Assembly (NCBI RefSeq): GCF_001618865.1
Contig: NZ_CP015136.1
Coordinates: 4,375,001-4,439,000 of the forward strand
DNA length: 64,000 bases
Direction of reading: 5' to 3'
From: Luteitalea pratensis
GTDB lineage: Bacteria; Acidobacteriota; Vicinamibacteria; Vicinamibacterales; Vicinamibacteraceae
Below, piece by piece: positions 6,815-42,160 of the stretch (position 1 is its first letter; each line of letters opens with the position of its first letter). Below the pieces are notes generated by a model. That model did not search any database. It saw only the letters and a list, made by a program, of their open reading frames with translations, and had not been told where the DNA came from. The position numbers were made by a program, and so were the translations under genes.

Positions 6815-6845
6815 GGACCGATTGTTGGGCCCGGGCGGTGGCGCG

Positions 6846-6935: not shown

Positions 6936-6998
6936 TCAGGGAAGTTGTAGGCGTCGAGCTTGCTCGACGCACACCCGCCACCCTCTCATCGTCGATCG

Positions 6999-7031
6999 CA
7001 TTCCGGCATTCCAGGCATTCCCGGCATTCCG
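6999..7031. repeat. GGCATTCC tandem repeat
   Basis: Four ATTCC units spaced 8-9 nt apart (GCATTCC GGCATTCC AGGCATTCC CGGCATTCC), the same unit as in the gap after apaG. No coding frame crosses it. Confidence 0.75.
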
Positions 7032-7312
7032 TGGCTCTGACCAGAGGTCGTCCGGCCGGTCGACGCTGTCGACGGAGCGACATCTCGTGCAGGCTTCGAC
7101 CGTCGGCCAGGTTGGTGTCGCGCCGCCTCGGCTTGGCGTTCATCTCCGACTTCAGCAGGAAACACTGGCGAAAGCCTGCAGATACGACAGCAATCGGCTC
7201 CGTGACAAATCACATGAATCCCTGGCCGGTACACGCGACGCCCGTGGCACCACGCTTGCTCCTTCAGTGGTCAACCGCGGGAGCAGGCGCTCCCGGGAGG
7301 CACGAGGACATC

Positions 7313-7846: not shown

Positions 7847-7873
7847 CATCCCACTCCCCTCCTCTCTCCCCCA

Positions 7874-7908
7874 CGCCGTCGGCGCCCGTCGCCGGCGGCG
7901 ATTTTTTT
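7874..7908 (+). terminator. intrinsic terminator after the EF-hand gene
   Basis: An 11-bp stem (CGCCGTCGGCG with CGCCGGCGGCG, one G-U pair) with a 5-nt loop is followed by A and seven T. It lies 28 nt after the EF-hand stop and has the classic rho-independent form. Confidence 0.85.
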
Positions 7909-7917
7909 GGGTGGATA

Positions 7918-7963
7918 TTGGATCGGGAGTCGGGAGTCGGGGGTCGGGAGTCGGGAATTCCCG
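7918..7963. repeat. heptamer array GGGAGTC
   Basis: Three GGGAGTC copies plus GGGGGTC and a trailing GGGAATT sit within 10 nt of the stop codon of the minus-strand cheA-cheX gene at 7966. Confidence 0.85.
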
Positions 7964-24700: not shown

Positions 24701-26602
24701 CAGAAGCAACTGGTTCTTGCGCGGCTCGACACGACCCACACACAACACGTATTCACCGATACCGAGATGCTCGCGGAAGGCCGCCCCGCCGTCGTCGGCA
24801 CGCCAGTCCAGGTCGACCCCGTTGTGCACGAGTGTACAGGGGCGAGTCAACGCGCCGAACTGATCGAGCAGGTCGATTTCGCGCGTGCTCAACACCAGCA
24901 GGTGATCGGCGAGACTCGTGATCTCGCGTACCGTCGCAGGCCATGCCTCCCATGCTGGCGAAAGCGCCGCGCCGAGCGCGCGCCGGTCGTCCATCGGCGT
25001 GGCGTGCAGCCGGGCGAGTTCGCGTTCGACGACATCGGGCGTGTGTCCGGCCCGGAACACCGGCAGGATCGTCCGCTGCGACCAGAGGCCCTCGAACAGG
25101 TCGAGCAGGATCGGCGAGAAGACAATGGGGACGCCCGCCGCACGGACGTGCGCGAGCTGAAGACGCGCCGATTCCGGCTCCCACACATTGAACGCGTGGA
25201 CGACATCGTACCCGTTGACGTGGGGACATTCGCTGGTCGCGACATCGGCGTCAATACCGAAGCCTGCCAGCGCCTGCTGCATCTGCCGGACGCGGATCGA
25301 TGGACCGCCCGTGGGAGCGATCGTCTCCGGGGCATGAAGCGCCAGCAGCACCCGCAGCCGCGGCGTGCTCGCCGTGGCGGGTTCGGCGGCGTCCACCGTC
25401 GCCGACGGTGGACCCAGCCGTGACGCCGACGCCAGCAGTTCACCGAAGATGCGGTCGTGATCGGCGGCCCAGGCATCCCAGGTGCGGTGCGCCACCGACT
25501 GCCGCAGGCCCTGGCGTCGTCCCACCAGTTCACGCAGCACCCGCCGCAGGTCATTGGGGTCGTCGCGCTCGTACGCGATGTGCGGGTACTCGTCGACGAA
25601 GCCGACGTCGGGTGCAATGACCTCCACACCGCTCGCGAGTGCCTCGAGCACCGACATCGGGCCACCCTCGTACCGTGCCGGCACGAGGATGTAGTCCATC
25701 TCGCGGTAGAAGGCCGGCAGGTCCGCGTCGGCGACGTGACGGCCAGGTCGAGGCCAGCCGCTTCCGGTGAAGTGCCATTCGATACCGGGTTCGTCCATGA
25801 CTGCTGCGACGAGCGCCTCGCCCTTCCGGCCCGTGTGGTAGGCCCGGCCGGCGACGCCGATGCGGACGCGGGGCTGGAAGCGATCGAGGTCGACGCCGGG
25901 CGTCACCAGGCGCACGTCTCGCGCTCCCGCCTCACGCAGGCGCGTCGCGTATCGTGCCGCCATGCAGAGGGCGACGTCGACGCGACGGCCCGCCTCGAAG
26001 AAGCGATCGGCCGCCGCCGGCACATCGTCTTCGACGTGGGTGAAGAATGCGGCCTCCAGTCCGGCGCCGCCCCTGGCCGCAGGCATCGCCGAGTAATTCA
26101 CGTAGTAGGTCAGACGCGCCCGCCCCGTGGGCGCGTCGACGATCCTCGCGTAAGACAGTCTCGACTCGAGTTCGCGTGCGCACCGCTCGAGAATCCAGCC
26201 GCGGTCGGCGAGCACGATCTCGACGGCCGTCTCACCGGATGCGTGAGTGAGTCGAGGAGTCGGCCGGGGCCGTGGTGCCGGCGAGGGCGCGGGACGCGGC
26301 TGCGTCGGCACGACGGCGGCGCGCACCTGGTCGAGGCTGGTCACGACGCGGGAGGCGATGCCGAGGTCGACCAGTTGCCTGGCGATGGCAGGCGCATACA
26401 TCGACGTCAACCACACGACGGCGATGTCGGCAAAGGCCTCGCGCGACGGCTCGCGCACCGGCACGCCGTCGATCTCGCTGCCCCACCGGGAGGCGTCGTT
26501 GTCGAAGACGCAGGTGGCGCGGAGTCCCGCCGCGGCCAGGGCAGCCAATCCCTGTCGGCCGAACGATCCCGCGCCGAAGAGCGCGATCAGGCCTGGTCCC
26601 AT
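21779..26602 (-). CDS. 1607-residue multidomain protein: three glycosyltransferase modules, methyltransferase, TPR
   Basis: ATG at 26602 overlaps the end of nadE by 16 nt. Approximate layout: residues 1-105 Rossmann-like (LIALFGAGSFGRQG), similar to the N-terminal part of PglD-type sugar acyltransferases; 120-410 GT4-like module (EGGPMSVLEALASGVEVIA near 314); 430-790 GT4 module (YVLCVGRVEPRKNQ near 622, SEGMPLSALEAASAG near 700); 800-985 class-I methyltransferase (ALEIGSGSAPLPDHEHLDA near 804, then NCLEHVPW and LKPHGTLDLWTPD); 995-1370 GT4 module (LPTRGEGLGLPFMEAMASG near 1264); 1385-1607 TPR repeats (HEPVYNRASLLARLNKRP, WTLARYNLASVLARAGRVDDA). No membrane span. A processive or stepwise glycan builder with a capping methyltransferase is plausible. 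The reading frame is open further upstream, but that part lies inside nadE. Confidence 0.85.
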   Translation of the reverse strand: MGPGLIALFGAGSFGRQGLAALAAAGLRATCVFDNDASRWGSEIDGVPVREPSREAFADIAVVWLTSMYAPAIARQLVDLGIASRVVTSLDQVRAAVVPTQPRPAPSPAPRPRPTPRLTHASGETAVEIVLADRGWILERCARELESRLSYARIVDAPTGRARLTYYVNYSAMPAARGGAGLEAAFFTHVEDDVPAAADRFFEAGRRVDVALCMAARYATRLREAGARDVRLVTPGVDLDRFQPRVRIGVAGRAYHTGRKGEALVAAVMDEPGIEWHFTGSGWPRPGRHVADADLPAFYREMDYILVPARYEGGPMSVLEALASGVEVIAPDVGFVDEYPHIAYERDDPNDLRRVLRELVGRRQGLRQSVAHRTWDAWAADHDRIFGELLASASRLGPPSATVDAAEPATASTPRLRVLLALHAPETIAPTGGPSIRVRQMQQALAGFGIDADVATSECPHVNGYDVVHAFNVWEPESARLQLAHVRAAGVPIVFSPILLDLFEGLWSQRTILPVFRAGHTPDVVERELARLHATPMDDRRALGAALSPAWEAWPATVREITSLADHLLVLSTREIDLLDQFGALTRPCTLVHNGVDLDWRADDGGAAFREHLGIGEYVLCVGRVEPRKNQLLLAHALRETGLDLVLIGDTPKPDYQMLVQAAGGSRVHFVPRIVHDDPLLASALAGARVFALPSWSEGMPLSALEAASAGASLVLSDRSGERESLGPLARYCDPSDWRDIRRAVLDAWHDRDGGSRARDMRAWIARALTWQHAARDTARAYGTALAARGIDAGGWTPPPRRALEIGSGSAPLPDHEHLDARADLPGVDHVADIRSPLPFPDATFDHVSSRNCLEHVPWREVDSVLREWARILKPHGTLDLWTPDFEYLCRQYLEGRADTHLERALRDDAARALAGYDASAWAMVKMFGGQDYPENFHGAVLDETLVTRLLAAAGFERVTRQEPGWGLRISARRALRPVGLASVPPPDESGAWIPTLLWDGPFFNTTGYAAHSRYLTRALASGGLSVQLCTRDDVPAVRAQMLAPEAPDVERWQRLLRRVSRRDVHVSFYTPTDWSGASVFRQRREEHPGYRAYVGLTHFECDPLPVGWADACAELDELWVPSRFVRDLFLDAGLSPDRIHVLPTGIDAARFDPGRVTPLPIAGRRGFVFLATFDWSLRKGWDVLVEAYARAFTAADDVCLVLRTSSRRKENVTAEIDTLLASIGRTHDEIPPIIMLPDALTDAEMVRLYRAAAVFVLPTRGEGLGLPFMEAMASGVPVIATRWSGHLDFVTDETGWLIDVDAIVPVDAAQAARSPFYRTSQRWAEPSVGHTAALMRQAFDHPEEARRKGAAARASIASTWFPERTARWVRERLQVLAPDADEALRRGRRAEADGQHERALEAYLVAARARRGWHEPVYNRASLLARLNKRPHARRLFESIVETPDTTLRAGVRFHLGELAMQEGLPEVAAPHFHASLATTPDHRAAQAWLALIEARTEEQAGRLEQAIAAYERACSYRAGWTLARYNLASVLARAGRVDDAVLHFARVAREASSADLRSGSHFHLARLMAGRGDIESARRHLALVLGEVPDHAGARALEARLDSQS

Positions 26603-28230
26603 GTCCCGCGTGCAATCGGCATCCGCCAGCCGGTGCCGAAGGCCCGCGGCGTCACCTTCAGCACCGGCGCAGCCTGCTTGCGTTTGAACTCCGAGATCCG
26701 CACCAGGTGCACCACCTGGTGCACCATCGTGGGATCGAAGCCCTCGGCGACGAGCGTCGGTCCATCGGCGCACTGCTCCACGTGTCGCACCAGCATGGCA
26801 TCGAGCAGGTCGTATGGCGGCAGGCTGTCCTGGTCGGTCTGGTTCGGACGCAATTCCGCAGAGGGCGCCTTGTCGATCGTGGACGCGGGAATCACCACGC
26901 CACCACGGTTGACCCAGTGTGCGAGACGATAGACGAGCGTCTTGTACACGTCGGCGATGACCGCGAGCGCACCGTTCATGTCGCCATACAACGTGCAGTA
27001 GCCCGTCGCCAGTTCGGACTTGTTGCCGGTCGTCAGCAGCAGGTCGCCGGTCTTGTTCGACAATGCCATGAGGAGTGTGCCGCGGATGCGCGCCTGCAGG
27101 TTCTCCTCGGTCACATCGGCCGGACGCGCCGCGAAGGGCCCGGCCAGCACATCGTCGAAGGCGTTCATCACGGGGGCGATCGGCAGGGTGTGGGTCCCGA
27201 TGCCGATGGCGGCGGCGAGTTGCTCGGCATCGGTCAGGCTGCCTGCACTCGAGAAGGGCGACGGCATCAGCACGCCCGTGACGTTGTCGCGGCCGAGCGC
27301 CTCGACGGCAATCACCGCCGTCAGCGCGGAGTCGATGCCGCCCGAGAGGCCGAGCAGCGCCCGCGTGAAGCCGCACTTGCGCGCGTAGTCGCGGACGCCG
27401 AGGACCAGCGCCGCGAACACTTCCGCCTCGACGGCCTCGTCCCACGGGTCGACGCCGCCGTAGGGCGCTCCGGTGTCGACGATGAGCGTGTCCTCGGCAA
27501 AGGCTGCCGCGCGCGCCACGCAGGTTCCGTCAGGCGCAAATGCGAGGCTGCGTCCGTCGAAGATCAGGTCGTCGTTGGCCCCCACCTGGTTGGCATAGAA
27601 AGCCCAGACGCCGTACTTGCGCGCGAGGTGGGCCAGCAGTTGCTCGCGCTGGGCGAGCTTGCCCTGTGCGTAGGGCGATGCCGACATGTTCAGCATGACC
27701 GGCGTCGCGAGATCGCGCAGCGCGGCGACGGGATCGCCACCGTACCGCCGCGTCGTCCACACGTCGGGATCGTTCCAGACGTCCTCGCAGATGCTCACCG
27801 CGGCCCGGCAATTCCCGATCGCGACTGCGCCGACCGTTCGGCCGGGCTCGAAGTAGCGGTCTTCGTCGAACACGTCGTAGGTCGGCAGCAACGTCTTCGC
27901 GAACGACTGCCCCACTGTCCCGCCTCGCAGGTGCACAGCGGCGTTGAGCAGCGGCCGGCCGGGCTCCACCCCGGATGGGATGGGCATCCCGAGCAGGACG
28001 TCCGGACCAGACGCGAGGACGCTCGCCAATCGCGAGGCGACCTCCTGGGCGTGCGCGATGAACCCTGGCACGAGCAGCAGGTCCCGTGGCGGATATCCCG
28101 TGAGGGCCATCTCTGGCGTGACGCAGACATCAACCCGACCCTGCACGGCACGAACTGCCGCTTCGATTCGGGAGGCGTTGGCGTCGAGGGCTCCGACGAT
28201 GGGGTTGAGCTGGAGGAGCGCGATGCGCAT
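26587..28230 (-). CDS. nadE: glutamine-dependent NAD+ synthetase
   Basis: 547 residues. N-terminal nitrilase-type glutaminase: TPEMALTGYPPRDLL (catalytic Glu), KTLLPTYDVFDEDRYF (Lys) and AVSICEDVWNDP (Cys, nucleophile). C-terminal synthetase from about residue 285: LLGLSGGIDSALT is the PP-loop that binds ATP, and TTGNKSELATGY, YGDMNGAL and KAPSAELRPNQTDQDSLPPY are family signatures. It amidates nicotinate adenine dinucleotide to NAD+, using glutamine as the ammonia source. Length and motifs are complete. It lies between the second stator pair and the giant glycosyltransferase gene, an odd place for a housekeeping gene; a heptamer array separates it from motB2. Confidence 0.95.
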   Translation of the reverse strand: MRIALLQLNPIVGALDANASRIEAAVRAVQGRVDVCVTPEMALTGYPPRDLLLVPGFIAHAQEVASRLASVLASGPDVLLGMPIPSGVEPGRPLLNAAVHLRGGTVGQSFAKTLLPTYDVFDEDRYFEPGRTVGAVAIGNCRAAVSICEDVWNDPDVWTTRRYGGDPVAALRDLATPVMLNMSASPYAQGKLAQREQLLAHLARKYGVWAFYANQVGANDDLIFDGRSLAFAPDGTCVARAAAFAEDTLIVDTGAPYGGVDPWDEAVEAEVFAALVLGVRDYARKCGFTRALLGLSGGIDSALTAVIAVEALGRDNVTGVLMPSPFSSAGSLTDAEQLAAAIGIGTHTLPIAPVMNAFDDVLAGPFAARPADVTEENLQARIRGTLLMALSNKTGDLLLTTGNKSELATGYCTLYGDMNGALAVIADVYKTLVYRLAHWVNRGGVVIPASTIDKAPSAELRPNQTDQDSLPPYDLLDAMLVRHVEQCADGPTLVAEGFDPTMVHQVVHLVRISEFKRKQAAPVLKVTPRAFGTGWRMPIARGTWDQA

Positions 28231-28373: not shown

Positions 28374-29180
28374 CTAGCCGGCGAACACGCGGCCGCTTGG
28401 CATCGTCGACCGCGTGCCCGCCTCTCCGCCCGCGGCGGGCGCGCGTGAGCCGGGCTCTTCGGCGGCGGCCGTCTCCTCGTTCAGGATGATGACGTCGACA
28501 CGCCGATTGCGCGCGCGGTCGGCGTCGCTCGCGTTGGCGACGCGTGGATGGAACTCGCCGTAACCGGCCGCCGACAGCCGGCGCGGCGCCACACCGACCT
28601 GCTCCACCAGATACGTGACGACTGAGGTTGCCCTCGCCGTGGACAGTTCCCAGTTCGACCGGAACCGCCCGGTCTGGATCGGCACGTCGTCGGTGTGGCC
28701 TTCGACGCGCAAGGCCACGGCACTGTCGCCGCCGAGCGTGGCCGCCAACTCCCTGAGGACGTCGCGCGCCACGGCCGACAGGTCGGCGCTGCCGGTCGGG
28801 AAGCTGCCGGCTTCACGCATCGACACGACGACGCCCCGATGATCGATCTCGATGTCTACGGCACTGCCCGCAAGCCGCTCGCGTAGGCGCTGCGCGAGGG
28901 CCCGCTCGCGCTGTTCGGTGGTCAGGCTGGGCGCAGTGGGCGTGACGGGACGAGGCGCCGTCGTCTTCGGTGCGGCGACATCGATACCCCTGGAGTCGAA
29001 CGCTTCCTGCATCGAGTCCACCATCGTCGTCAGCTTGCGCGCGTCGACCGTGGATATCGCATACATCGTGGTGAAGAAGGCAAAGAGCAGCGTGATGAAG
29101 TCCGCGTACGACACCAGCCAGCGTTCGTGGCTCGCCGTATGCGCCTGATGCATGCGCCGGCGGGACCGGCGCGCGCTCAT
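28374..29180 (-). CDS. motB2: flagellar stator protein MotB (second set)
   Basis: 268 residues. HERWLVSYADFITLLFAFFTTMYAIS holds the single membrane helix with the proton-binding aspartate. A linker rich in Thr/Pro follows, then the OmpA domain from about residue 120, with VEGHTDDVPIQTGRF, NWELSTARATSVVTYLV, GYGEFHP and ARNRRVDVII. It differs from the first MotB in having an SYADF/TLLFAFF helix, like the MotB/LafU/MotD group, and in lacking the KKKK N-terminus. ATG overlaps the motA2 stop by 4 nt. It ends the tightly packed sugar/FlbD/stator operon before the repeat array. Confidence 0.9.
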   Translation of the reverse strand: MSARRSRRRMHQAHTASHERWLVSYADFITLLFAFFTTMYAISTVDARKLTTMVDSMQEAFDSRGIDVAAPKTTAPRPVTPTAPSLTTEQRERALAQRLRERLAGSAVDIEIDHRGVVVSMREAGSFPTGSADLSAVARDVLRELAATLGGDSAVALRVEGHTDDVPIQTGRFRSNWELSTARATSVVTYLVEQVGVAPRRLSAAGYGEFHPRVANASDADRARNRRVDVIILNEETAAAEEPGSRAPAAGGEAGTRSTMPSGRVFAG

Positions 29181-29986
29181 GCGGCCCTCCGCCGTGCGCC
29201 CGCCGGGGGCGAGGCCTCCTCGGCTGCAAGCAGGCCCCGCAACTTCTGGTCGATCAGCCGCGGGTTCTGCCCTTCCTGGATGGCGAGCACACCTTCGAGG
29301 ATCACCTCGCGGCGCCGCGCCCGTCGCAGTGCGCGACTACGCAGCTTTGCAGCAACCGGCAGCAGGATCAGATTGGCCGAGCCGACGCCATAGACGGTGG
29401 CCACGAAGGCGACAGCGATGCCCGCGCCGAGCTTGCTCGGGTCGCTCAGGTTCTCCATCACGTGGATCAGCCCGAGCACCGCACCGAGGATGCCGACGGT
29501 GGGGGCGTAACCACCAGCCGCTTCGTAGACGCGCGCCGGCGCCTCCTCGTACTCTTCGCGGCCGTCGTTCTCGGCCTCGAGCATGTGTCTCAGCGTGGTC
29601 GGATTGGTGCCATCGACGGCAAGCCGCAGGCCGCGACGCATGAACGGATCGCTCAGCGAGTCCAGTTCGTCCTCGAGCGACAGGATGCCGTCCTTGCGTG
29701 CCTTGACCGCCAGCCGCCCGATCGCCTCAAGGACCTGGCCAGCAGGCGGCAGGTCGTCCACGAACACGTGGCGGAGGCTGCGCCACGCTTCCGTCACGTC
29801 ACGACGCGGATGACTGAGGAGCACCGCACCGAGCGTGCCGCCGAACACGATCAGCGCCGCGGCACCCTGTAGCAGCGACCCCAGCTTGCCGCCCTCGGCG
29901 ACGTGACCGCCGACAATCATCGCGACACCGAGCGGCAGCCCGATGAGCGACAACATGTCGTAGGAACGCGGCGCGCGGGCGGCCAT
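29177..29986 (-). CDS. motA2: flagellar stator protein MotA (second set)
   Basis: 269 residues. Membrane helices lie at about 10-27 (LSLIGLPLGVAMIVGGH), 37-57 (LLQGAAALIVFGGTLGAVLL), 150-170 (YAPTVGILGAVLGLIHVM) and 182-204 (IAVAFVATVYGVGSANLILLPV). AGGYAPTVGILGAVLGLI is the conserved ion-path signature, and EAGG-Y plus LPVAAKLRSR matches the MotA/PomA/MotC branch. The sequence differs from the first MotA and is closer to the shorter 250-270 residue group. It starts 3 nt after flbD. Together with motB2 it would form an alternative stator. Confidence 0.9.
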   Translation of the reverse strand: MAARAPRSYDMLSLIGLPLGVAMIVGGHVAEGGKLGSLLQGAAALIVFGGTLGAVLLSHPRRDVTEAWRSLRHVFVDDLPPAGQVLEAIGRLAVKARKDGILSLEDELDSLSDPFMRRGLRLAVDGTNPTTLRHMLEAENDGREEYEEAPARVYEAAGGYAPTVGILGAVLGLIHVMENLSDPSKLGAGIAVAFVATVYGVGSANLILLPVAAKLRSRALRRARRREVILEGVLAIQEGQNPRLIDQKLRGLLAAEEASPPAGARRRAA

Positions 29987-29989
29987 GGG

Positions 29990-30223
29990 CTACTCCACGG
30001 CGCGCAGCGCCGTGGCCTCCCCACGCCTGTCCCGCACGGGTGGCAGGCCCAGGCCGCGCTTGTATTCCTGCACCCGGCGCACGATGTCGTCGGGCGTGTC
30101 GCGCACCAGCAGCTTCTCGCCGTTGGCCAGCGCGATGACGGTATCGGGATTGAACTCGATCCACGTGATCTGGTCGATGTTCACCAGCAGCCCGGTGCCG
30201 TCGAGTCGAGTGACGCGGATCAT
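29990..30223 (-). CDS. flbD: FlbD/SwrD-like small flagellar protein
   Basis: 77 residues. MIRVTRLDGTGLLVNIDQITWIEFNPDTVIALANGEKLLVRD matches the FlbD/SwrD family: a short beta-rich protein with ITLxNG-like and VxETxxE-like positions. SwrD in Bacillus raises stator torque, and in many bacteria the gene sits just before motA, as here (3-nt gap). The ATG overlaps the stop of the SpsF-like gene (ATGA). Cytoplasmic; no membrane segment. Confidence 0.85.
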   Translation of the reverse strand: MIRVTRLDGTGLLVNIDQITWIEFNPDTVIALANGEKLLVRDTPDDIVRRVQEYKRGLGLPPVRDRRGEATALRAVE

Positions 30224-30930
30224 GCGACCGCCCGCCTCACGAGCCGCCGGGCAGCCGCGATCACGTCCACCAAACCCGCCACGCGCGGGTCGAGGCCGTG
30301 GTGCTCGAGGTCGGCGGCGAGGCGCCGGACGTAGGCGAGGTCGTCGGGAGTATCCACGGTGAGTCGCAAGTCGGGCGCGCGCACATCGTCTGGGGCCAGC
30401 GGTACCACGCGTACGACGTCGTCGGCCCGTTTGACCCAGGGCGTCACGTGTTCCCGGTCGTACGCGGTGGCGGCTTCCCGCTGTGCCCGCAGCAGCACAT
30501 CCCGCCGGACGCCCTCCACCGCTGCGCCCAACGGCAGCGCTACCTCGACGGCATAATCGGCACCGTCGGACAGCACCTTGAGAATTCTCGCGCACCCGGC
30601 CACGTCGACAAACGGATTGTCCGCCGTCGCCCGTAGCACGTAGCGTGCCTCCGGGTATTGCTCGGCCACCTGCGCAAAGCGCGCGAGCACGTCGTTGGTG
30701 GGTCCTGTCCAGGCACGCGCGCCGAGTTGCGCGCCGAGTGCAACGACAGGCCGATCCTCGGTCGCGGTCGTCGTGGCGACGACAACGGGACCGACACCGG
30801 CCGACGCCAGGCGTCGGACGCAGTACTCGGCGAGTGGCCACCGGAGCACCGGTGCCAGGACCTTGCCTGGCAGGCGCTGCGATCCCATGCGTGCCTGCAG
30901 GATGATTACCGTGCTCGCCAGACCTGTCAC
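30220..30930 (-). CDS. SpsF-like cytidylyltransferase
   Basis: 236 residues. TVIILQARMGSQRLPGKVL near the N-terminus is the nucleotide-binding signature of the SpsF/CMP-sugar synthetase family, and YVLRATADNPFVD carries the metal-binding aspartate. These enzymes activate nonulosonic or related sugars with CTP. In this operon it follows a NeuB-type synthase and an ATP-grasp gene, so it is the natural candidate to make the CMP-sugar donor for the Maf protein. SpsF in Bacillus belongs to a spore-coat polysaccharide pathway with the same gene partners (SpsC, SpsE, SpsG). The start overlaps the ATP-grasp stop by 4 nt. Confidence 0.83.
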   Translation of the reverse strand: MTGLASTVIILQARMGSQRLPGKVLAPVLRWPLAEYCVRRLASAGVGPVVVATTTATEDRPVVALGAQLGARAWTGPTNDVLARFAQVAEQYPEARYVLRATADNPFVDVAGCARILKVLSDGADYAVEVALPLGAAVEGVRRDVLLRAQREAATAYDREHVTPWVKRADDVVRVVPLAPDDVRAPDLRLTVDTPDDLAYVRRLAADLEHHGLDPRVAGLVDVIAAARRLVRRAVA

Positions 30931-31943
30931 CGATCTTCTCCAGTCATTGCATGGTCACGTCGGCTCAGCACCTGCGCGGCGGCGGCGGTCAGGAAGAGCG
31001 ACGTCTCGTAGCTGCTCATGCGAAGCGCGTCGGTGAACTCACCGAGGTGCGGGCGCAACGATTCGCCGCGGGCGACGCGGATCGTCCACTCCGCGAAATC
31101 GGCGCCGGCGGCCACCGTCAGCTGGATCCCGCCGCTGAACCGCGGATTGATTTCGAAGATCACTGGCGTGCCGTCGACGACGCGGCACTGCACGTTGACG
31201 GCGCCGCGGAACGGCAGCACCGCGGCGCAGCGCACCGCAAGATCCATCAGGTCGCGGCTGCGCACCGTTCGACCCCGGTCGGTAACGCCCGCTCTGATCA
31301 CCAGCCGCTCGCGCGGCACCGCGGAGATCGGCCGGCCGTGCATGTCGCAGAACAGGTCGATGGTGAACTCCGGGCCTTCGAGGTACTCCTGCACGACCGG
31401 ATCGGCTACGTATTGCAGGAAGAAGCGGAGCTGATCCCGGGTGCGGATCGGGAAGGCGCCGACGCTGCCCCGTCCGCAACGCGGTTTGATGAACAACGGC
31501 GGCCCCAGCTCGAGATCGCGCACCTGCGCAGGCGACCACGTCGCGGCCACGCGGATGCCATGGCGTTGGAGGTGCGCCGCCGTCCGCAACTTGTCTCGGC
31601 AGACCCGCGCCGTCTCGACCCCTGGCCCCATCACCACCACGCCAGCCGCGGCGAAGCGATCGGCAGCCGCGGCGATCGTCTCGAGCTCGTCGTCGATCGT
31701 GGGGACGAGGATGCCGGCGTCGTGCGCGTCGCACACCTCGAGAAGCGCCGTCACGTAGTCGGGATGATCGCTGCGCGGCACTGCCTCGGCGGCATCGGCG
31801 ATGTGAACGGCTGGCGAGAAGGCATCGATGTCGGTCGCGACGACCCGTCCGTGTGGCGTTAACCGTGCCAGCGCGCCCTGGAGCGCGCGGACGAGTGCCA
31901 CCCGGCGCGACGCCGCCGTGACCACGACATTGGGTCTGATCAT
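30927..31943 (-). CDS. ATP-grasp ligase, carbamoyl-phosphate-synthase-like
   Basis: 338 residues. An N-terminal Rossmann half (RPNVVVTAASRRVALVRAL...VVATDIDAFSPAVHIAD) is followed by the ATP-grasp: GPPLFIKPRCGRGSVGAF is the lysine/glycine phosphate loop, VVQEYLEGPEFTIDLFC the adenine-binding strand, and VNVQCRVVDGTPVIFEINPRFSGGIQL the metal-binding E-x-N motif. Such single ATP-grasp proteins (PylC/CPSase-like) join a carboxylate to an amine or other nucleophile. In this setting it might add an amino acid or acyl group to the nonulosonic sugar or its precursor; that is inference. Overlaps both neighbours by 4 nt. Confidence 0.83.
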   Translation of the reverse strand: MIRPNVVVTAASRRVALVRALQGALARLTPHGRVVATDIDAFSPAVHIADAAEAVPRSDHPDYVTALLEVCDAHDAGILVPTIDDELETIAAAADRFAAAGVVVMGPGVETARVCRDKLRTAAHLQRHGIRVAATWSPAQVRDLELGPPLFIKPRCGRGSVGAFPIRTRDQLRFFLQYVADPVVQEYLEGPEFTIDLFCDMHGRPISAVPRERLVIRAGVTDRGRTVRSRDLMDLAVRCAAVLPFRGAVNVQCRVVDGTPVIFEINPRFSGGIQLTVAAGADFAEWTIRVARGESLRPHLGEFTDALRMSSYETSLFLTAAAAQVLSRRDHAMTGEDR

Positions 31944-32998
31944 GCGAGGCCTCCGGGACGGCGCGTGCCGAGATCGAGGGGCTCGAACGGCGATCCCGCC
32001 GCCATGTCGCGGGGCGCGCGGCAGCCGATCAGGACGCGCGCGTACTCGGCGCCAAGGGAGCCGACGGGACGCAGGGCGGCCACGTCCGCTTCTTCGATGA
32101 CCTGACCAGCCACGATGGCACGGCGCGCATACAGTCCGCGGCGACTCGGGACGATGTTGGCACGCTCGGCCTCCATTGGTCCCCGGCGTCCCTCTCCCAT
32201 GGCGTCGTGTGCCCGCGCCAGGCGCCGCACGATGTCGCGCAGGTCGTCCGGCGTCGAGGACACGGGTGCGTCGATGGCGTCGGTGCCTGGCAGGTACACG
32301 TGCCGTTCGTACAGCGTCGCACCCTGCGCGTAGGCCAGCAGTGCCGCGTCGGCCCCCATGCCGTGATCCGAGAGGCCTGTCGGCAGCTTGTACTCGTGCG
32401 CCAGGGTGGCCACGGCACGAAGGTTCTGCTGCGCATCAGGGGTCGGGTACGCAGACACGCAATGCAACAGCGCGAGCGATCGCGCGCCAGCGCCGACTGC
32501 CCAGTCGACGGCGTTCCAGACGTCGCTCTCCGTGCTCATGCCCGTCGACAGGATCACTGGCAACCCCGTTCGCGCCACCTGTTCGATGAGCAAGGCGTGA
32601 GTCAGGTCGGCGCTGGCAACCTTGAAGGCGTCAAGCCCGATCTGCTCCAGCATCTCGACCGAGGCGCGGTCAAACGCGGTGGCAATCGTGGCCAGCCCTC
32701 GTTCCCTCGCGTGGCGCAGCAGGCTGTCATATGCCGCCGCCTGCAACTCGAATCGCGCAAAGAATTCACGCAGCGATGTGGCCTGCACATGCGCCGGGGC
32801 CGGCGCGTCCGCCACCAGCAGCTCGTCGGCCTCGAATACCTGCAGCTTGATCGCCCAGGCGCCCGCATCGGCACACGCGTCGACGAGGCGGTGGGCCACG
32901 TCGGCGTCGCCCATGTGATTCAGCCCGATCTCCGCAATCACGCGCATCGGGCTGCCGGCGGCAATGGACTGACCGGCGATGTCAGCAGGCAGCGACAT
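31940..32998 (-). CDS. NeuB/PseI/SpsE-family nonulosonic acid synthase
   Basis: 352 residues. The start at 32998 is set by GGAGG seven bases upstream, ahead of the conserved MRVIAEIGLNHMGD. KLQVFEADELLV, AFKVASADLTHALLIEQVARTGLPVILSTGMST and LLHCVSAYPTPDAQQNL are TIM-barrel signatures for PEP condensation. After about residue 285 comes an antifreeze-like SAF domain (RRGLYARRAIVAGQVIEEADVAALRP). These enzymes condense phosphoenolpyruvate with an amino-hexose to give sialic, legionaminic, pseudaminic or related acids; which one is not decidable from motifs. The 5' end overlaps the HAD gene by 17 nt. Confidence 0.88.
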   Translation of the reverse strand: MSLPADIAGQSIAAGSPMRVIAEIGLNHMGDADVAHRLVDACADAGAWAIKLQVFEADELLVADAPAPAHVQATSLREFFARFELQAAAYDSLLRHARERGLATIATAFDRASVEMLEQIGLDAFKVASADLTHALLIEQVARTGLPVILSTGMSTESDVWNAVDWAVGAGARSLALLHCVSAYPTPDAQQNLRAVATLAHEYKLPTGLSDHGMGADAALLAYAQGATLYERHVYLPGTDAIDAPVSSTPDDLRDIVRRLARAHDAMGEGRRGPMEAERANIVPSRRGLYARRAIVAGQVIEEADVAALRPVGSLGAEYARVLIGCRAPRDMAAGSPFEPLDLGTRRPGGLA

Positions 32999-33671
32999 GA
33001 TGTACCTCCAGCAGGCGGCCGACGAGGCCGGGTACGTCGGCGAGGCTCCGGGCCACTGCCTCGGCTGCCGGCGGCGCTGGGTCGAGGCGACGCCCTGGCA
33101 GCCAGATCGGACGCAACCCTGCAGCGGCCGCGCCAGCGATGTCCTTCTCCGGATGGTCGCCGATGAACACGGCGCGGGCGGCGTGGACATCGAGCCGCGC
33201 CAGGATGGTCGCGAAGCAGACGTGCGCCGGCTTGCCCTCCGGGGCATGCTCCTGCGCGTAGACCACCACGTCGACCAGGCCGTCGATCCCGAGGGCCCGC
33301 ACCTTGGCGCGCTGCGTCGACGGCAGGCCATTGGTCAGCACGCCGAGGCGGTGACCGCGCGCCCGAAGCACGCCGAGCACGTCACGCGAGTCATGCGGTA
33401 AGCGGAGCCGCGGACCATGCGTGCGAATGATCTCGACCAGGCGCGGTACCTCCTGGGGCGACAGGGCGAACGCGGCGCACAACGCCTGCAGCAGGCCTTC
33501 GCGGCCATGTTTCCTGAAGCGGCGCACGAGGAACCGGTACAGGACGCCGGCCGGCATGCCGGTCTCCCCGCCGACGACGGTGGCCACTGCCGCATAGCCG
33601 CTCAGCGCGAAGCGGCGTTCGGGATACAAGGTGTCGTCGAGATCGAAGACGACAGCTGTGGGCTCACCCAC
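32982..33671 (-). CDS. HAD-superfamily hydrolase
   Basis: 229 residues from a GTG with GGAGG seven bases before it. VVFDLDDTLYPE is the nucleophile motif (DxDxT), GVLTNGLP holds motif II (Thr), EGKPAHVCF supplies the motif III lysine, and VFIGDHPEKDIAGAAAAG is motif IV. A helical cap sits between motifs I and II (type C1). As a small-molecule phosphatase in a NeuB-type operon it could dephosphorylate a 9-phosphate sugar (as NeuA/NanP partners do) or act on an intermediate; not decidable. The frame stays open upstream, but that part lies over the PseG-like gene. Confidence 0.85.
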   Translation of the reverse strand: MGEPTAVVFDLDDTLYPERRFALSGYAAVATVVGGETGMPAGVLYRFLVRRFRKHGREGLLQALCAAFALSPQEVPRLVEIIRTHGPRLRLPHDSRDVLGVLRARGHRLGVLTNGLPSTQRAKVRALGIDGLVDVVVYAQEHAPEGKPAHVCFATILARLDVHAARAVFIGDHPEKDIAGAAAAGLRPIWLPGRRLDPAPPAAEAVARSLADVPGLVGRLLEVHHVAAC

Positions 33672-34656
33672 GAGGGGCCTCCTTCGACACGGCAACAATC
33701 GCCTGGGCCACTCGCCGCGCGCCCAGTCCGTCAACAAGGCGCGGGCCATCGTCGCGAACGACCTCGCGAAGCGAGGAGCTTCGCGCAATACGCTCGACGC
33801 GTGCCGCGACGCGCCTCGCAACGACGTGCGCGCCGCCCGTCGCGAGGCCTGCGGAAACGGTCAGGTGATGGCGGGCAAAGCCACGAATCGTCGGCAGCTG
33901 CGCAGGGACGACCGCCACCGCCACCGTCGGCACGCCAGCCGCGACGGCTTCATACAGGGACACACCGCCGCCGACGATCGCGACGTCCACGCGGGCCAGC
34001 CACGGTGCCAGGCCGTCGGGCGCGGAGACGCGGCGGACGCGGGCGGGGGTTCCGGCAGCGGTTGGCAACACCTGTAGCTGTGTGACGAGCACCTCGACGT
34101 CGGGCAGTCGTCTCATGACTTCATCCGCGACGGCGCGCGACAACGCCTCGCGCGGGCCGCCCCCGAGCGACACCAGCACGCGGCGCACGGCACCGCGCCT
34201 CGTGGCCTGGCGAGGCCGGCCGATCACGGCATAGCGCAGTCCGCGCAGCGTGCAGGCAGCCGGCCATCCACGCGAGGGACTCACGACGCTGCCATCGATG
34301 GCGAGGCTCGATGGCACACGGGCGATGCCGAGGTCGTGGAGGCTGACGACCGGCACCCGGCGCCGCGTGGCGGCGGAAACCCACGCGCCTCCATGGCCCG
34401 CATGCGGGTCGTCCACGATCAGGACGGCCGGACGAACGGCGTCGAGCGTCTCTCCGGCCGCCGCCGGCGCGACGATGGACAGTCGTGTTCCCGCGCCGCC
34501 AGCGCCGCGGATGCTCACGCGCGCCGATCGTCCCAGCGCACACGCGAGGGCCTCGGCGCGACGCAGGTGGCCGTGGCCGATGCGCGGTCCAGCGGCGACC
34601 CTGAAGAGCGCAAACGTGCCAGTCACGCTGATCGGACGACGACGGGTCACGCTCAC
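33664..34656 (-). CDS. PseG/SpsG-like UDP-sugar hydrolase or glycosyltransferase
   Basis: 330 residues with a GT-B (MurG-like) fold. GPRIGHGHLRRAEALACAL matches the G-GH--R---LA pattern of PseG, and the C-terminal half has RRVLVSLGGG and VAIVGGGVSLYEAVAAGVPTVAVAVVPAQLP, the nucleotide-binding part. PseG removes UDP from the 2,4-diacetamido sugar before the NeuB-type condensation. In the sps operon the equivalent is SpsG. It overlaps DegT by 4 nt and the HAD gene by 8 nt. A plain glycosyltransferase role remains possible. Confidence 0.75.
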   Translation of the reverse strand: MSVTRRRPISVTGTFALFRVAAGPRIGHGHLRRAEALACALGRSARVSIRGAGGAGTRLSIVAPAAAGETLDAVRPAVLIVDDPHAGHGGAWVSAATRRRVPVVSLHDLGIARVPSSLAIDGSVVSPSRGWPAACTLRGLRYAVIGRPRQATRRGAVRRVLVSLGGGPREALSRAVADEVMRRLPDVEVLVTQLQVLPTAAGTPARVRRVSAPDGLAPWLARVDVAIVGGGVSLYEAVAAGVPTVAVAVVPAQLPTIRGFARHHLTVSAGLATGGAHVVARRVAARVERIARSSSLREVVRDDGPRLVDGLGARRVAQAIVAVSKEAPRG

Positions 34657-35834
34657 ATCGTCCTGGAGAGCAGCTGCTGGAGGGTCTCGACGACGCGGTC
34701 CGCGTCGGCGAGGGGCATCCCGCTCCAGAACGGCAGGGAGAGCGAGTGATCGCTGTGGTGCTCCGCGTGCGGGTACATCCCGCGGCGCAGGGAGAAGCGC
34801 TCCGCGTAGTAGGAGTGCAGGTGCAGGGCCCGGAAATGGACGCTGGTACCGATCCCCTCACGCCCGAGCGCAGATTGCAGCGCGTCCCGGGTCCAGCCGC
34901 AGCGATCGGGATCGACCATCACGGTGTACAGGTGCCGCGCGTGCGTCCAGGTATCGGGTACGGGCGCCGGGCGCCCGAGCGGCAGGTGCGCGAGCCCCGC
35001 CTCGTAGCGATCCCAGAGGCGGCCGCGCTGCGCCTGCATGTCGGCGAGACGGTCCAACTGCGCCAGGCCGAGGGCGGCCTGCAGGTCCATCATGTTGTAC
35101 TTGTACCCGGCCATCACGACCTCGTACTGCGCCGGCGCGCCTGGGGCGTTGCGCGCCCATGCGTCGCGCGACAGGCCGTGCAACGCGGCGACGCGCATCC
35201 AGTCGGCGTCCTCAGGCGAGTCGGTCGTCACCATCCCGCCTTCGCCGGTGGCAAGGTTCTTGGTCGAGTAGAAGCTGAAGGCGGTGACGTCGGCGATCGA
35301 CCCGATGCGGCGACCGTCCACGGCGCCGTCGACGCAATGCGCCGCGTCCTCGATCAACTTGAGTCCCGCCGCATCTGCGAGCGCGCGAAACGTCAGGGGA
35401 TCGGCCGGACGCCCCGCGTGGTGCACCGGCAGGATGGCACGCGTGCGCGGCGTGATCGCGGCTGCCGTGGCATCCGGATCCATCGTGCCGGTCGCGCGAT
35501 CGACGTCCACGAACACCGGCGTGCCGCCAGCATGGAGGATTGTGTTGGCGGTTGCGCAGAAGGTGAGCGGGGTGGTGATCACCTCGTCGCCCGGGCCGAC
35601 GTGACTCGCGAGCAGCGCCAGGTGCAGCCCCGCCGTGCAGGAGTTCAGGGCCACCGCTTCCGCGGCGCCGACGTGTTGCGCGAACGCCGCCTCGAACGCC
35701 TTCACGCGCGGCCCCGTCGTCAACCATCCCGACGCCAGCACCTCGGCGATGGCCGACAACTCGGCGTCGCCCATGTCAGGGCGAGCGAGTGGCACGAATG
35801 CGGGACCGGTGTGCCCCCTGGGGCCGATGGACAT
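34653..35834 (-). CDS. DegT/DnrJ/EryC1/StrS (PseC/SpsC-like) aminotransferase
   Basis: 393 residues. VPLARPDMGDAELSAIAEVLASGWLTTGPRV is the family start, VALNSCTAGLHLALLA binds the PLP phosphate, and FSFYSTKNLATGEGGM contains the lysine that forms the Schiff base. LIEDAAHCVDG holds the aspartate that contacts the pyridine nitrogen. Such PLP enzymes transfer an amino group from glutamate to a 4-keto-hexose bound to UDP, giving the 4-amino sugar needed for pseudaminic- or legionaminic-type acids. The ATG at 35834 follows the unknown gene by 25 nt. The dehydratase (PseB-like) and N-acetyltransferase (PseH-like) expected beside it are not in this operon. Confidence 0.9.
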   Translation of the reverse strand: MSIGPRGHTGPAFVPLARPDMGDAELSAIAEVLASGWLTTGPRVKAFEAAFAQHVGAAEAVALNSCTAGLHLALLASHVGPGDEVITTPLTFCATANTILHAGGTPVFVDVDRATGTMDPDATAAAITPRTRAILPVHHAGRPADPLTFRALADAAGLKLIEDAAHCVDGAVDGRRIGSIADVTAFSFYSTKNLATGEGGMVTTDSPEDADWMRVAALHGLSRDAWARNAPGAPAQYEVVMAGYKYNMMDLQAALGLAQLDRLADMQAQRGRLWDRYEAGLAHLPLGRPAPVPDTWTHARHLYTVMVDPDRCGWTRDALQSALGREGIGTSVHFRALHLHSYYAERFSLRRGMYPHAEHHSDHSLSLPFWSGMPLADADRVVETLQQLLSRTM

Positions 35835-35859: not shown

Positions 35860-36495
35860 TCAGGCGACCGGGACCGGCAGCGCCGACAACAGCGCCTGCA
35901 CCTGTCCGCGCCCCTCGACGAGCCGCGCCTGCCACGCCTCGAGAGATGACGAAAGGTCGTATTCCAGTGCGTCGGCCGCCGTGACCCAATCTTCGGCGCC
36001 CACGGCGCCCTCGATCGCTCCCGCCACCCGATCGACTGCGGCCACATCCTCCCCCAACCAGTCGCCGCCTGCCAAGCCGACCTGCCGCGCCCACAGGTCG
36101 GCGGTGTGCACGAGGGCAGCCATCAGGGCCAGGTTGTCGGCCAGCTCGCCGATCGCCTTGCGCGGCTCGTCCACGTGCGCGCCGCGCAGGCCGGAGGCCA
36201 CGACTCGCGCCTCACCGGCGAGTACCGGCAGGAAACGGAGCGCGTCGTCCAGGGCCTGGAGGGCCATCAGGCCGACCGGGGTCGTATCGAGATCGATTTC
36301 GTCCACGCCGACGAGGCTGCGTTCGAGGATGTCGCGCTCGCGGAATGCCGGTTCGTCGACACCATTGATGCGGAGCGCCGTCACTATGCGCCCCGACTGG
36401 CCGAGGACGGGCTCGACCGCGGAGAGCAGCGCATCGATGGTAATCGGTGCATTCACGCCTGGGATTAGCGAGCAATCAACGCGAAGTGTGGGCAT
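35860..36495 (-). CDS. unknown protein at the head of the sugar/stator operon
   Basis: 211 residues from an ATG with GGAG seven bases upstream; an in-frame ATG four codons earlier lacks a ribosome site. The first 85 residues look alpha/beta (RIVTALRINGVDEPAFRERDILERSLVGVDEIDL); the rest is helical and acidic (ELADNLALMAALVHTADLWARQVG, EYDLSSSLEAWQARLVEG). No signal, membrane helix or known motif. It is divergent from the flagellin gene by 205 nt and precedes the DegT gene by 25 nt, so it is probably co-expressed with the sugar pathway. I do not recognise a family; a flagellin-binding or regulatory role would be a guess from position. Confidence 0.75.
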   Translation of the reverse strand: MPTLRVDCSLIPGVNAPITIDALLSAVEPVLGQSGRIVTALRINGVDEPAFRERDILERSLVGVDEIDLDTTPVGLMALQALDDALRFLPVLAGEARVVASGLRGAHVDEPRKAIGELADNLALMAALVHTADLWARQVGLAGGDWLGEDVAAVDRVAGAIEGAVGAEDWVTAADALEYDLSSSLEAWQARLVEGRGQVQALLSALPVPVA

Positions 36496-36631
36496 CGTGG
36501 TCTCCATGGTGCCAGGGAGAGGAGCAAACACGGGGCCAGCTTCGCGGACATCGAGCAACCGGGCACGGATGTTGGATTGATGCCCTGCGGCAAGTGAACG
36601 AAGGTGTGCGACCGGTGTGCGGAGACCGCAC

Positions 36632-36700: not shown

Positions 36701-37513
36701 ATGGCGTCGTTCTCGGTCGTCACCAATGTGTCTGCGGTCAACGCGCAGGCCAACCTGTACCAGACCAACATCGGTCTGCGGCAGGCTCTCACCCGCGTCT
36801 CGAGCGGGTATCGCATCAACTATTCCGGCGACGATGCCGCCGGACTCGCGGTGGCCAACCGCTACCGATCCGATGTGGCGGTGCTGCAGCAGGGCGTCCG
36901 CAACGCCAACGACGGCCTGTCCGACCTGCAGATCAAGGACGGCGCCCTCGACAACATGTCGAAGCTGCTCGACCGCCTCGCGGTGCTCGCCACCCAGGCG
37001 GCCTCCGGCCAGACGACGACCAACTCGCGCAACACGCTCGACGCGGAGTTCCAGGACGTCCTCGGCGAAATCTCGCGGGAGTCGAACGTGGCGCGCCTGG
37101 ACGTGGCCGGCGCCAGCCAGGGCTTCTCCGTGTTCGTCAGCAGCAACGGCACCAACGGCGTCGTCGCCGGTACGATCGGTGACGTGGACATCACCACGCT
37201 CGGCCTCACCGGACTCACCATCGCCAACCAGGCCGGTGCGCAGACGGCGGTCTCGACGGTGACCACCGCCATCACCAACCTGGGGGTGGTGCAGGGCCAG
37301 GTCGGGCAGCTCCAGAATCGCCTCAGCTACGCGATCAGCCTGGCGCAGAGCCAGATCGTCAACACGAAGAGCGCCGAGAGCCGGATCCGCGACGCCAACG
37401 TCGCCGAGGAGTCGGCCAACCTGACGCGCTATTCGATCCTGAATCAGTCAGGCATCGCCGCCCTGGCACAGGCGAACCAGTCGACCAGCGCGGTCCTGTC
37501 CCTGCTCCGCTGA
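36701..37513 (+). CDS. fliC1: flagellin (first copy)
   Basis: 270 residues with only the D0/D1 core. The N-terminal part (NAQANLYQTNIGLRQALTRVSSGYRIN, GDDAAGLAVANRYR, QIKDGALDNMSKLLDRLAVLATQA) and the C-terminal part (QNRLSYAISLAQSQIVNTKSAESRIRDANVAEESANLTRYSIL) are the coiled-coil helices that pack the filament core and carry the export and FliS-binding signals. The variable middle is only about 70 residues, Ser/Thr/Asn-rich (SSNGTNGVV), and would be the surface available for sugars. Start ATG at 36701, GGAGG ten bases upstream. About 75% like the second flagellin by eye. Confidence 0.96.
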   Translation: MASFSVVTNVSAVNAQANLYQTNIGLRQALTRVSSGYRINYSGDDAAGLAVANRYRSDVAVLQQGVRNANDGLSDLQIKDGALDNMSKLLDRLAVLATQAASGQTTTNSRNTLDAEFQDVLGEISRESNVARLDVAGASQGFSVFVSSNGTNGVVAGTIGDVDITTLGLTGLTIANQAGAQTAVSTVTTAITNLGVVQGQVGQLQNRLSYAISLAQSQIVNTKSAESRIRDANVAEESANLTRYSILNQSGIAALAQANQSTSAVLSLLR

Positions 37514-37715: not shown

Positions 37716-38522
37716 ATGGCAAGTTTCTCGGTCATCACCAACGTTGCCGCCAACAACGCGCAGGCCAACCTCTACTCCACCAACATCGGCCTCCGCAACG
37801 CGCTGACGCGCGTGTCGAGCGGCTTCCGCATCAACAGCTCCGGTGATGACGCGGCCGGGCTCGCGGTCGCCAACGGTTACCGTTCCACCATCGCCGTCCT
37901 GAACCAGGGCGTGCGCAACGCCAACGACGGCCTGTCCGACCTGCAGATCAAGGACGGCGCGCTCGACAACGTCTCCAAGCTGCTCGACCGGCTCTCCACG
38001 CTGGCCACGCAGGCCGCTTCGGGCCAGACCACCAGCACGTCACGCACGACGCTGGACGCCGAATTCCAGGACGTGCTCAACGAAATCAACCGCGAGAGCA
38101 ATGTCGCCAACCTGTCATCGGCACAGGGTTTCTCGGTGTTCGTCAGCAACAACAGCGCCAACGGCAGGGTGGGCGGCTCGATTGGCGCCGTCACGACGAC
38201 CTCGCTCGGCATCAACGCCGATGCGCTGACCTCGCAGACCGGCGCGCAGACCGCGGTTGCCAACATCGCCACGGCCGTCAATACCCTGGGCAGCGTCCAG
38301 GGCCAGGTCGGTCAGCTCCAGAACCGTCTCAGCTACGCGATCAGCCTCGCACAGAGCCAGATCGTCAACAACCGGGCGGCCGAAAGCCGTATCCGTGACG
38401 CCAACATCGCCGAGGAATCGGCCAACCTGACCCGGTTCTCGATCCTGAACCAGTCGGGCATCGCCGCCCTCGCCCAGGCCAACGGGCAGACCGCGGCCGT
38501 TCTCTCCCTCCTGCGCGGCTAG
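37716..38522 (+). CDS. fliC2: flagellin (second copy)
   Basis: 268 residues, same D0/D1-only design as the first copy: NAQANLYSTNIGLRNALTRVSSGFRIN, GDDAAGLAVANGYR, and C-terminal AQSQIVNNRAAESRIRDANIAEESANLTRFSIL. Differences lie mostly in the short central part (ANLSSAQGFSVFVSNNSANGRV) and in the linkers. It has its own sigma-28 promoter and a strong terminator, so the two flagellins can be expressed at different levels. AAGGAGG precedes the ATG. Tandem short flagellins next to a Maf and nonulosonate locus suggest that both are modified. Confidence 0.96.
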   Translation: MASFSVITNVAANNAQANLYSTNIGLRNALTRVSSGFRINSSGDDAAGLAVANGYRSTIAVLNQGVRNANDGLSDLQIKDGALDNVSKLLDRLSTLATQAASGQTTSTSRTTLDAEFQDVLNEINRESNVANLSSAQGFSVFVSNNSANGRVGGSIGAVTTTSLGINADALTSQTGAQTAVANIATAVNTLGSVQGQVGQLQNRLSYAISLAQSQIVNNRAAESRIRDANIAEESANLTRFSILNQSGIAALAQANGQTAAVLSLLRG

Positions 38523-41212: not shown

Positions 41213-42160
41213 CTATGCCGAGGCCGCCACTGGCGTTGACAGCACGCGACGGCCGAGCGGGCGCTCGGCATGCAGGAAGTACCCGGTCTGCACGAAACCG
41301 CGGGCGTCGTAGAGCGCTCGGGCGTGCGCGTTGTCCTCGCTCACCAGCAGCGTCGCCACGGCACGGTCGTGGCTCACGCCCCAGGACATCATCGTGTCGA
41401 GCATGCGGCTGGCCAGGCGCTGACGTCGCGCGTCGGGATCGACGACGAGTTGCGCGAGGTGGATCGTCCGCTGCGACAATCCCGTGACCACGGAGGCGCC
41501 TAGTACCTGTCCTGCCGCCGCCCCCGGCGCCACCATGCTTGCCCCGGGGAGGAACTGGCCGAGCGCCGCGCCACGCGTGAGCTGCCCCAGGTACTGGGCC
41601 CACTCCTCGAGGCGGCCATGCGGCGCGAAGCACCTCGCGCCGGCCACTCCCGAGTACGCGCGCGAGAAGAGCCGGACCAGGTCGGGGCCGTCGCCGTCGA
41701 CCATGGCCCGCAAGCCGGGCTCGATCGGGACCACGCACGATCGTTCGAGCGCCCGCCGCAGGTACCAGTAGCGGGTCACCGAGAACCGTCTCCGCTGCAA
41801 GGCACTCTCGCAGGCCGGGCTGTCGGGATAGACGAAGAGGAGCACCTCGTGCGCGAGCGAGGCCTCGGGGGTCTTGAAGATTGCATCGAGCAACAGGCGC
41901 ACGCCATCCGCGGTGCGCGAGTGGAGCGCGCCGACCTGCAGCACGCCGTGCTGTACCAGGAAGTAGGTCCAGCCGACGATGCTCTGGCCCGGCCCGCGAA
42001 CAACGAGCCCGGGCAGCGTGCCTTCGGCGCGCGCGTGCTCCAGGATCTGCAGCGACGGCCCGAGGTCCCATTGCAGGCCGTTGGCCCACCGCGCGCGCTC
42101 GGTTTCGTACACCGGCCGCATCGCGTCGGCCGACAGGTTGCGCCAGTCGTCGAGCCTCAC
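41213..42160 (-). CDS. GNAT-family acetyltransferase linked to csrA-fliW
   Basis: 315 residues with two GNAT-like halves. The N-terminal part (residues about 50-120) keeps the fold but not a clear CoA motif. The C-terminal part (about 215-300) has LAQLVVDPDARRQRLASRMLDTMMSW, the acetyl-CoA loop (R/Q-x2-x-L/A-S), and NAHARALYDARGFVQTGYFLH. ATG overlaps the csrA stop by 4 nt, so it is co-translated with a flagellar post-transcriptional regulator. Acetylation of an amino sugar for flagellin glycan (the PseH-type step missing elsewhere) is a tempting but unproven role; a protein acetyltransferase is the alternative. Confidence 0.8.
   Translation of the reverse strand: MRLDDWRNLSADAMRPVYETERARWANGLQWDLGPSLQILEHARAEGTLPGLVVRGPGQSIVGWTYFLVQHGVLQVGALHSRTADGVRLLLDAIFKTPEASLAHEVLLFVYPDSPACESALQRRRFSVTRYWYLRRALERSCVVPIEPGLRAMVDGDGPDLVRLFSRAYSGVAGARCFAPHGRLEEWAQYLGQLTRGAALGQFLPGASMVAPGAAAGQVLGASVVTGLSQRTIHLAQLVVDPDARRQRLASRMLDTMMSWGVSHDRAVATLLVSEDNAHARALYDARGFVQTGYFLHAERPLGRRVLSTPVAASA

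Follow-up and report, generated by a model that had tools for sequence, protein, structure and literature searches.

A conserved flagellum-linked operon of Acidobacteriota, probably for a sialic-acid-like flagellin sugar

The operon and its flagellar setting

We describe here a cassette of six overlapping sugar-biosynthesis genes joined to genes of the flagellar motor in Luteitalea pratensis, analysed within a 64,000-nucleotide stretch (the window; positions 4,375,001 to 4,439,000 of contig NZ_CP015136.1) of its complete, single-contig genome of 7,480,314 bases. The cassette belongs to an operon that is conserved among Acidobacteriota of soils and sediments and linked to the flagellum, and it probably directs synthesis of a nonulosonate (NulO), a sialic-acid-like nine-carbon sugar, for flagellin. 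The six genes, which an earlier note had placed at 30220-35834, are all open, lie on the minus strand, and are intact in every motif tested. In order they encode a DegT/DnrJ/EryC1 sugar aminotransferase of the ArnB/PseC-like kind (34653-35834), a PseG/SpsG-like candidate hydrolase of nucleoside diphosphate (NDP)-sugars (33664-34656), a HAD-superfamily phosphatase-like protein (32982-33671), a NeuB-type synthase with a SAF domain (31940-32998), an ATP-grasp carboxylate-amine ligase-like protein (30927-31943), and an SpsF-like cytidylyltransferase (30220-30930), with successive overlaps of 4, 8, 17, 4, and 4 nucleotides. The proposed continuation into flbD-motA-motB is borne out, in that the FlbD gene (29990-30223, minus strand, from domain search and overlap analysis) overlaps the SpsF-like gene through an ATGA, and the genes for the stator proteins MotA (29177-29986) and MotB (28374-29180), both on the minus strand and assigned by position and conservation, then follow without a real gap. 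The sharing of an operon by sugar genes and motAB suggests that the timing of glycan supply is coordinated with that of stator synthesis.

The operon has one more gene at its head than had been thought, a minus-strand open reading frame of 211 codons (35860-36495) that sits 25 nucleotides upstream of the DegT gene and which in relatives is kept between fliC and the cassette. Its product has no Pfam or NCBIfam match, and a confident structural model (predicted local distance difference test, pLDDT, 88) has no significant fold match in the PDB; homologues occupy the same position in several classes. A sigma-54-like -24/-12 element of the form TGGC-N7-TTGC, TGGCCCCGTGTTTGC (36524-36538, minus strand), is situated 29 nucleotides upstream of this first gene. 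The element is present in eight of the 19 operon leaders checked and was not found in the other 11; the further leaders that carry it are at loci L070, L051, L056, L059, L060, L062, and L063 (loci from other genomes are cited by such numbers), two leaders having it as TGGCACTCAAGTTGCT. Shuffling predicts about two matches to TGGC-N7-TTGC over both strands of the whole window, and the recurrence of the element at this position suggests, from sequence, that the operon may be under sigma-54 control. Neither a sigma-28 consensus nor any Rfam match was found in the window.

The cassette is not a one-off but recurs beside fliC and motAB across the Acidobacteriota. Orthologues of the ATP-grasp protein, 45-55% identical, are present in seven other genomes of the order as well as in other classes, and within the order fliS-fliD-fliC faces orf-DegT-PseG-HAD-NeuB-ATP-grasp-SpsF-(FlbD)-MotA-MotB. 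A scan of a genome collection gave 63 loci, mostly from Acidobacteriota, with others from Nitrospinota, Nitrospirae, Aminicenantes, and single representatives of other groups. Because the same gene order is found across many genomes, a chance arrangement is ruled out. In other classes a sugar nucleotidyltransferase gene, usually together with the DegT gene, lies between those for the ATP-grasp and SpsF-like proteins, and these classes may thus use a different NDP-sugar. At L056 and L058-L063 the inserted gene encodes a 237-residue sugar-1-phosphate nucleotidyltransferase, and L058 also has a LegB-like dehydratase (TIGR04180, 391 bits) in this interval.

The association with flagella extends beyond gene order. 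Of the 162 genomes searched within the order, a cassette NeuB scoring 260 bits or more (a limit set once the gap in scores had been seen) is present in 30 and a flagellin-family gene (counted by PF00669, which also catches FlgL-type proteins) in 43; 29 of the 30 have both, with a Fisher p of 2e-20 that is uncorrected for kinship. In the window, two flagellin genes whose products are the presumed glycan acceptors (36701-37513 and 37716-38522, both plus strand) lie next to the operon, the first divergent from it, and a candidate flagellin glycosyltransferase of the Maf type (PF01973; 16312-19626, plus strand, start codon uncertain) is also encoded, so that NulO genes are linked to both fliC and a Maf-type gene as in a flagellin glycosylation island. 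Homologues of the Maf-type gene are near the cassette at L055, L071, L077, L089, L059, L062, L064, and L056. The tie between the sugar pathway and flagella proposed in the earlier note is therefore upheld, by the shared operon with motAB and by the tracking of flagellin genes. We consider it improbable that the NulO is instead destined for lipopolysaccharide or exopolysaccharide and that the flagellar neighbourhood is incidental. Surface polysaccharides are often served by NulO genes, the window encodes several other glycosyltransferases, and the placement of a NulO on flagellin here is deduced from genes rather than from mass spectrometry; but such a role does not account for the correlation with flagellin, for the co-linear arrangement with motAB and fliC that different families and classes share, or for the nearby Maf-type gene. 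One further protein of the window, 1609 residues long (21779-26608, minus strand) and encoded downstream of nadE and motB, combines a methyltransferase and TPR repeats with three regions of glycosyltransferase group 1, and is a candidate extender of a flagellar glycan.

Identity of the nonulosonate pathway

The NeuB-type protein is a member of the NulO synthase family, with PF03102 (212 bits) and PF08666 both above cut-off and the catalytic residues E23, K51, H212, E231, H233, and R310 all present; the assignment draws on Pfam, NCBIfam, residues, and a tree. It is the only NeuB in this complete genome that scores well above cut-off, a second family match being weak (43.7 bits, over the cut-off). 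TIGR03569 (249 bits) outscores the PseI model TIGR03586 (218 bits against a cut-off of 340), with both scores below cut-off, and in a phylogeny that included annotated and structurally solved enzymes the PseI clade (support 100/100) excludes every cassette NeuB. Identification as a PseI for pseudaminic acid is thus excluded by the tree and by the sub-cut-off TIGR03586 score. The deep forks of the tree are weak, and it does not separate an SpsE-like from a NeuB- or LegI-like placement of the protein. The neighbouring proteins fit a NulO pathway of Sps rather than Pse character, as had been proposed, with genes of the DegT, SpsG-like, SpsE-like, and SpsF-like kinds clustered together. The DegT domain scores 394 bits and has the lysine in SFYSTKN, and the catalytic residues of the DegT and HAD proteins are intact. 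The PseG/SpsG-like protein has a GHGH motif but is of weak similarity, and gave no usable match to PDB sequences; its gene is nonetheless kept in position at 35 of 38 cassette loci. The SpsF-like protein, a candidate CMP (cytidine monophosphate)-NulO synthetase, is above cut-off for CTP_transf_3, and is encoded by the sole gene of that family in the genome apart from a KdsB-like one.

The absence of a dehydratase had been pointed out for this locus, and the studied operon indeed has no SMK-type 4,6-dehydratase for UDP-N-acetylglucosamine (UDP-GlcNAc). However, this is a lineage-specific absence. Of the 30 cassette genomes in the order, 16 (a count that includes G134, the source of the query) encode a WbpM/SpsM-like dehydratase, 49-57% identical, on the strand of the cassette, usually directly after motB and at a distance downstream of NeuB of about 4.2-4.9 kb, or 2.9 kb in one; in none of the four cassette-bearing genomes of the present genus is it so linked. 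The linked enzymes have the motif VMGATKR, with methionine at the position of the PseB-type tyrosine, and methionine in place of tyrosine marks the retaining type of dehydratase. Because relatives carry a dehydratase of the retaining type, our best guess is that the product would be a legionaminic-type sugar. A search of the L. pratensis genome gave a distant WbpM-like candidate of 653 residues (genome coordinates approximately 5877279-5879231; 41% identity) that could replace the linked dehydratase in trans; spsM of Bacillus subtilis is likewise located outside spsABCDEF. The same distant polysaccharide locus encodes a protein with a transaldolase-like domain and a HAD-like region (L048:5329-6621; genome approximately 5883329-5884621).

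The ATP-grasp and HAD proteins

The addition of an ATP-grasp ligase to the pathway is supported, in that the protein has an ATP-grasp fold with a conserved core and matches PF15632 and a PylC-like N domain above cut-off. The nearest solved structure to its model (pLDDT 88) is 2pn1, whose sole description is that of a carbamoylphosphate synthase large subunit; biotin carboxylases come next, and an L-amino acid ligase lower down. With such mixed neighbours the fold names no substrate. The HAD protein is above its family cut-off with DLDDT and GDHPEKD motifs, and its gene is present at 32 of the 38 cassette loci. Genes for the two proteins also adjoin each other at seven loci in which no NeuB was found (L066-L069, L126, L129, and L130). 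At six of these a same-strand DegT gene lies no more than about 1 kb away, and four have a dehydratase. At L066 and L126 the pair is accompanied by a PglC-like sugar transferase, and at L130 by a NeuC/LegG-like epimerase; Pfam scans of neighbours at these three loci, covering part of the open reading frames and at L130 limited by a nearby contig end, gave no acetyltransferase. Since the pair accompanies DegT and a dehydratase in the absence of NeuB, the arrangement suggests that the ATP-grasp and HAD proteins may N-acylate the amine made by DegT. An ATP-grasp protein resembling L-amino-acid ligases is also encoded in an annotated pseBCF...pseI cluster of Aureibacter, and a formyltransferase gene adjoins those for ATP-grasp and SpsF in a metagenome-assembled genome of Aminicenantes (L119:9641-10276).

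We favor a model, to which we assign a probability of roughly one half, in which a flagellar operon of sigma-54 type makes a CMP-activated NulO for flagellin, with the ATP-grasp ligase forming an amide in place of acetylation. Its substrates, order of steps, ligase target, HAD role, and Maf transfer are those that we infer from the gene families, intact motifs, conserved gene order, flagellin association, and linked dehydratase of relatives. A retaining dehydratase of the WbpM/SpsM type, acting in trans here and encoded after motB in relatives, would convert UDP-GlcNAc to a 4-keto-6-deoxy sugar, and DegT would place an amine on C4. The ATP-grasp protein would use a carboxylate and ATP to form an amide on this amine, replacing the acetyl-CoA-dependent step of SpsD, PseH, LegH, or PglD, and thus probably attaching an unusual acyl or amino-acid group instead of the usual acetyl; the HAD protein would probably supply or trim a phosphorylated precursor. 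Removal of UDP by the PseG/SpsG-like enzyme, condensation of the free sugar with phosphoenolpyruvate by NeuB, and formation of the CMP-sugar by SpsF would follow, and the Maf-type transferase would then transfer the NulO to the two neighbouring flagellins. A broader proposal, which we advance tentatively and hold to be somewhat doubtful, is that ATP-grasp and HAD form a widespread CoA-independent N-acylation module that takes the place of the N-acetyltransferase when bacteria make 4-amino-6-deoxy sugars, for flagellin NulOs and bacillosamine-like initiating sugars alike. The products would be aminoacylated or hydroxyacylated sugars of kinds that have yet to be described in Acidobacteriota.

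The source of the acetyl group bears directly on this. The operon has no SpsD-type N-acetyltransferase, as the earlier note had observed, and no NeuD/PglD-type acetyltransferase in the genome scores above cut-off; the candidate is a GNAT acetyltransferase, identified by domain search, in the flagellar region (41213-42160, minus strand). It is possible, if rather unlikely, that the route is an ordinary one to a di-N-acetyl legionaminic-type sugar, with this GNAT acetylating the C4 amine in the role of SpsD and the ATP-grasp protein decorating the NulO or its CMP form later. The GNAT gene is kept in the flagellar region of 28 of the 30 cassette genomes and is beside motB in another class, the cassette ATP-grasp gene adjoins NeuB and usually SpsF too, and in Shewanella the ATP-grasp gene sfmE is required for some, but not all, of the mass shift seen in flagellin (PMC3765264). 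However, the GNAT follows flagella with or without the cassette: it is present in 42 of the 162 genomes, including 39 of the 43 with flagellin and 11 of the 14 that have flagellin but no cassette, and within flagellin-bearing genomes its association with the cassette has a p of 0.09. It is therefore unsupported as a cassette-specific partner, and is no more than a candidate for the acetyl step that the earlier note had supposed. The company that ATP-grasp and HAD keep with DegT where no NeuB was found also speaks against a late decoration.

Little credence can be given to a mammalian-type route in which NeuB takes a 6-phosphosugar and the HAD protein removes the phosphate afterwards as a NulO-9-phosphate phosphatase. 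The HAD and NeuB genes are consecutive, and the structural matches of the HAD protein include the N-acylneuraminate-9-phosphatases 2w4m and 4knv, but these are weak and mixed with generic HAD proteins, and we rejected a NANP-like identity for this reason. Moreover, a 6-deoxy route through DegT leaves no 6-hydroxyl for phosphorylation, and HAD pairs with ATP-grasp without NeuB while missing from some NeuB cassettes.

Several observations nonetheless weigh against the favored model. The cassette proteins are assigned by sequence rather than by chemistry, and the PseG-like protein, at 42.8 bits with TIGR03590, falls far short of the cut-off of 153.6. Acetylation of the sugar by the flagellar GNAT is still conceivable, and the distant WbpM-like candidate, which has FnlABC-like genes nearby, may work for a different polysaccharide. 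HAD is missing from the cassettes at L058, L059, and L061, and is thus inessential to the step. The ATP-grasp gene of Nitrospinota and Nitrospirae loci is accompanied by a Gfo/Idh/MocA oxidoreductase and SpsF and by no local DegT, such that the amine used by ATP-grasp need not be derived from DegT.

Relation to other glycosylation systems

The cassette shares with the B. subtilis sps system (SpsM-C-D-G-E-F; PMC7439481) the dehydratase (in relatives), DegT, SpsG-like, SpsE/NeuB, and SpsF functions, but differs in having no SpsD, in the added ATP-grasp and HAD proteins, and in its proposed target, which is flagellin rather than the spore crust. DegT, PseG-like, NeuB-family, and cytidylyltransferase functions are also common to the PseB-C-H-G-I-F pathway, although the cassette NeuB is outside the PseI clade, the dehydratase of relatives is of the methionine (retaining) type, and the operon has no PseH. 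The PtmE-like nucleotidyltransferase, LegB, and NeuC-like LegG of the GDP-linked legionaminic route are absent from the studied operon, whereas loci of other classes have a sugar nucleotidyltransferase and, in one, a LegB-like gene.

ATP-grasp genes are already known near spsE and spsF or in flagellin-glycan loci, as in Clostridium and Shewanella. The Clostridium acetobutylicum cluster CA_C2186-2199 combines spsE, an 'ATP-grasp amino acyl ligase', spsF, and a Maf-domain gene (PMC4000134), and in the part of its gene table covered here it resembles the acidobacterial cassette in content, with ATP-grasp adjoining spsF and near spsE and with a MAF_flag10 gene; that part has neither motAB nor a HAD gene. 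In Shewanella oneidensis, NeuB-like and ATP-grasp genes of sfmABCDE are needed for full NulO modification of flagellin (PMC3765264). The sfm operon is alike in having those two kinds of gene, its own ATP-grasp protein being of the ATP-grasp_4 type and 412 residues long, but it includes methyltransferase, reductase, and ilvB-like genes and is without DegT, PseG, and SpsF. The Clostridium difficile type B locus likewise includes an ATP-grasp gene, CDR20291_0245, without which the peptidyl-amido glycan of flagellin is incomplete (PMC5207246), but the backbone (N-acetylhexosamine and rhamnose) and the gene set are different.

What is new here is the conserved acidobacterial cassette and its joining to motAB behind a sigma-54-like site, together with an explanation for the missing dehydratase and evidence from gene context on the roles of the ATP-grasp and HAD proteins. 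Among the papers searched, none deals with Acidobacteria, flagella, and pseudaminic acid together, and, if our interpretation is correct, this dominant but poorly studied soil phylum would have a conserved flagellin NulO system, and ATP-grasp proteins annotated solely as 'carbamoyl phosphate synthase-like' would gain a testable role. We also note two variant arrangements. Radical SAM/SPASM proteins are encoded near NeuB, PseG, and ATP-grasp at L105:1745-2740 and L123:1801-2808, in flagellar loci without a local DegT, and at L123, from a Firmicutes metagenome-assembled genome, NeuB, ATP-grasp, HAD, and a fused SpsF-PseG protein (6139-7959) are encoded beside fliS.

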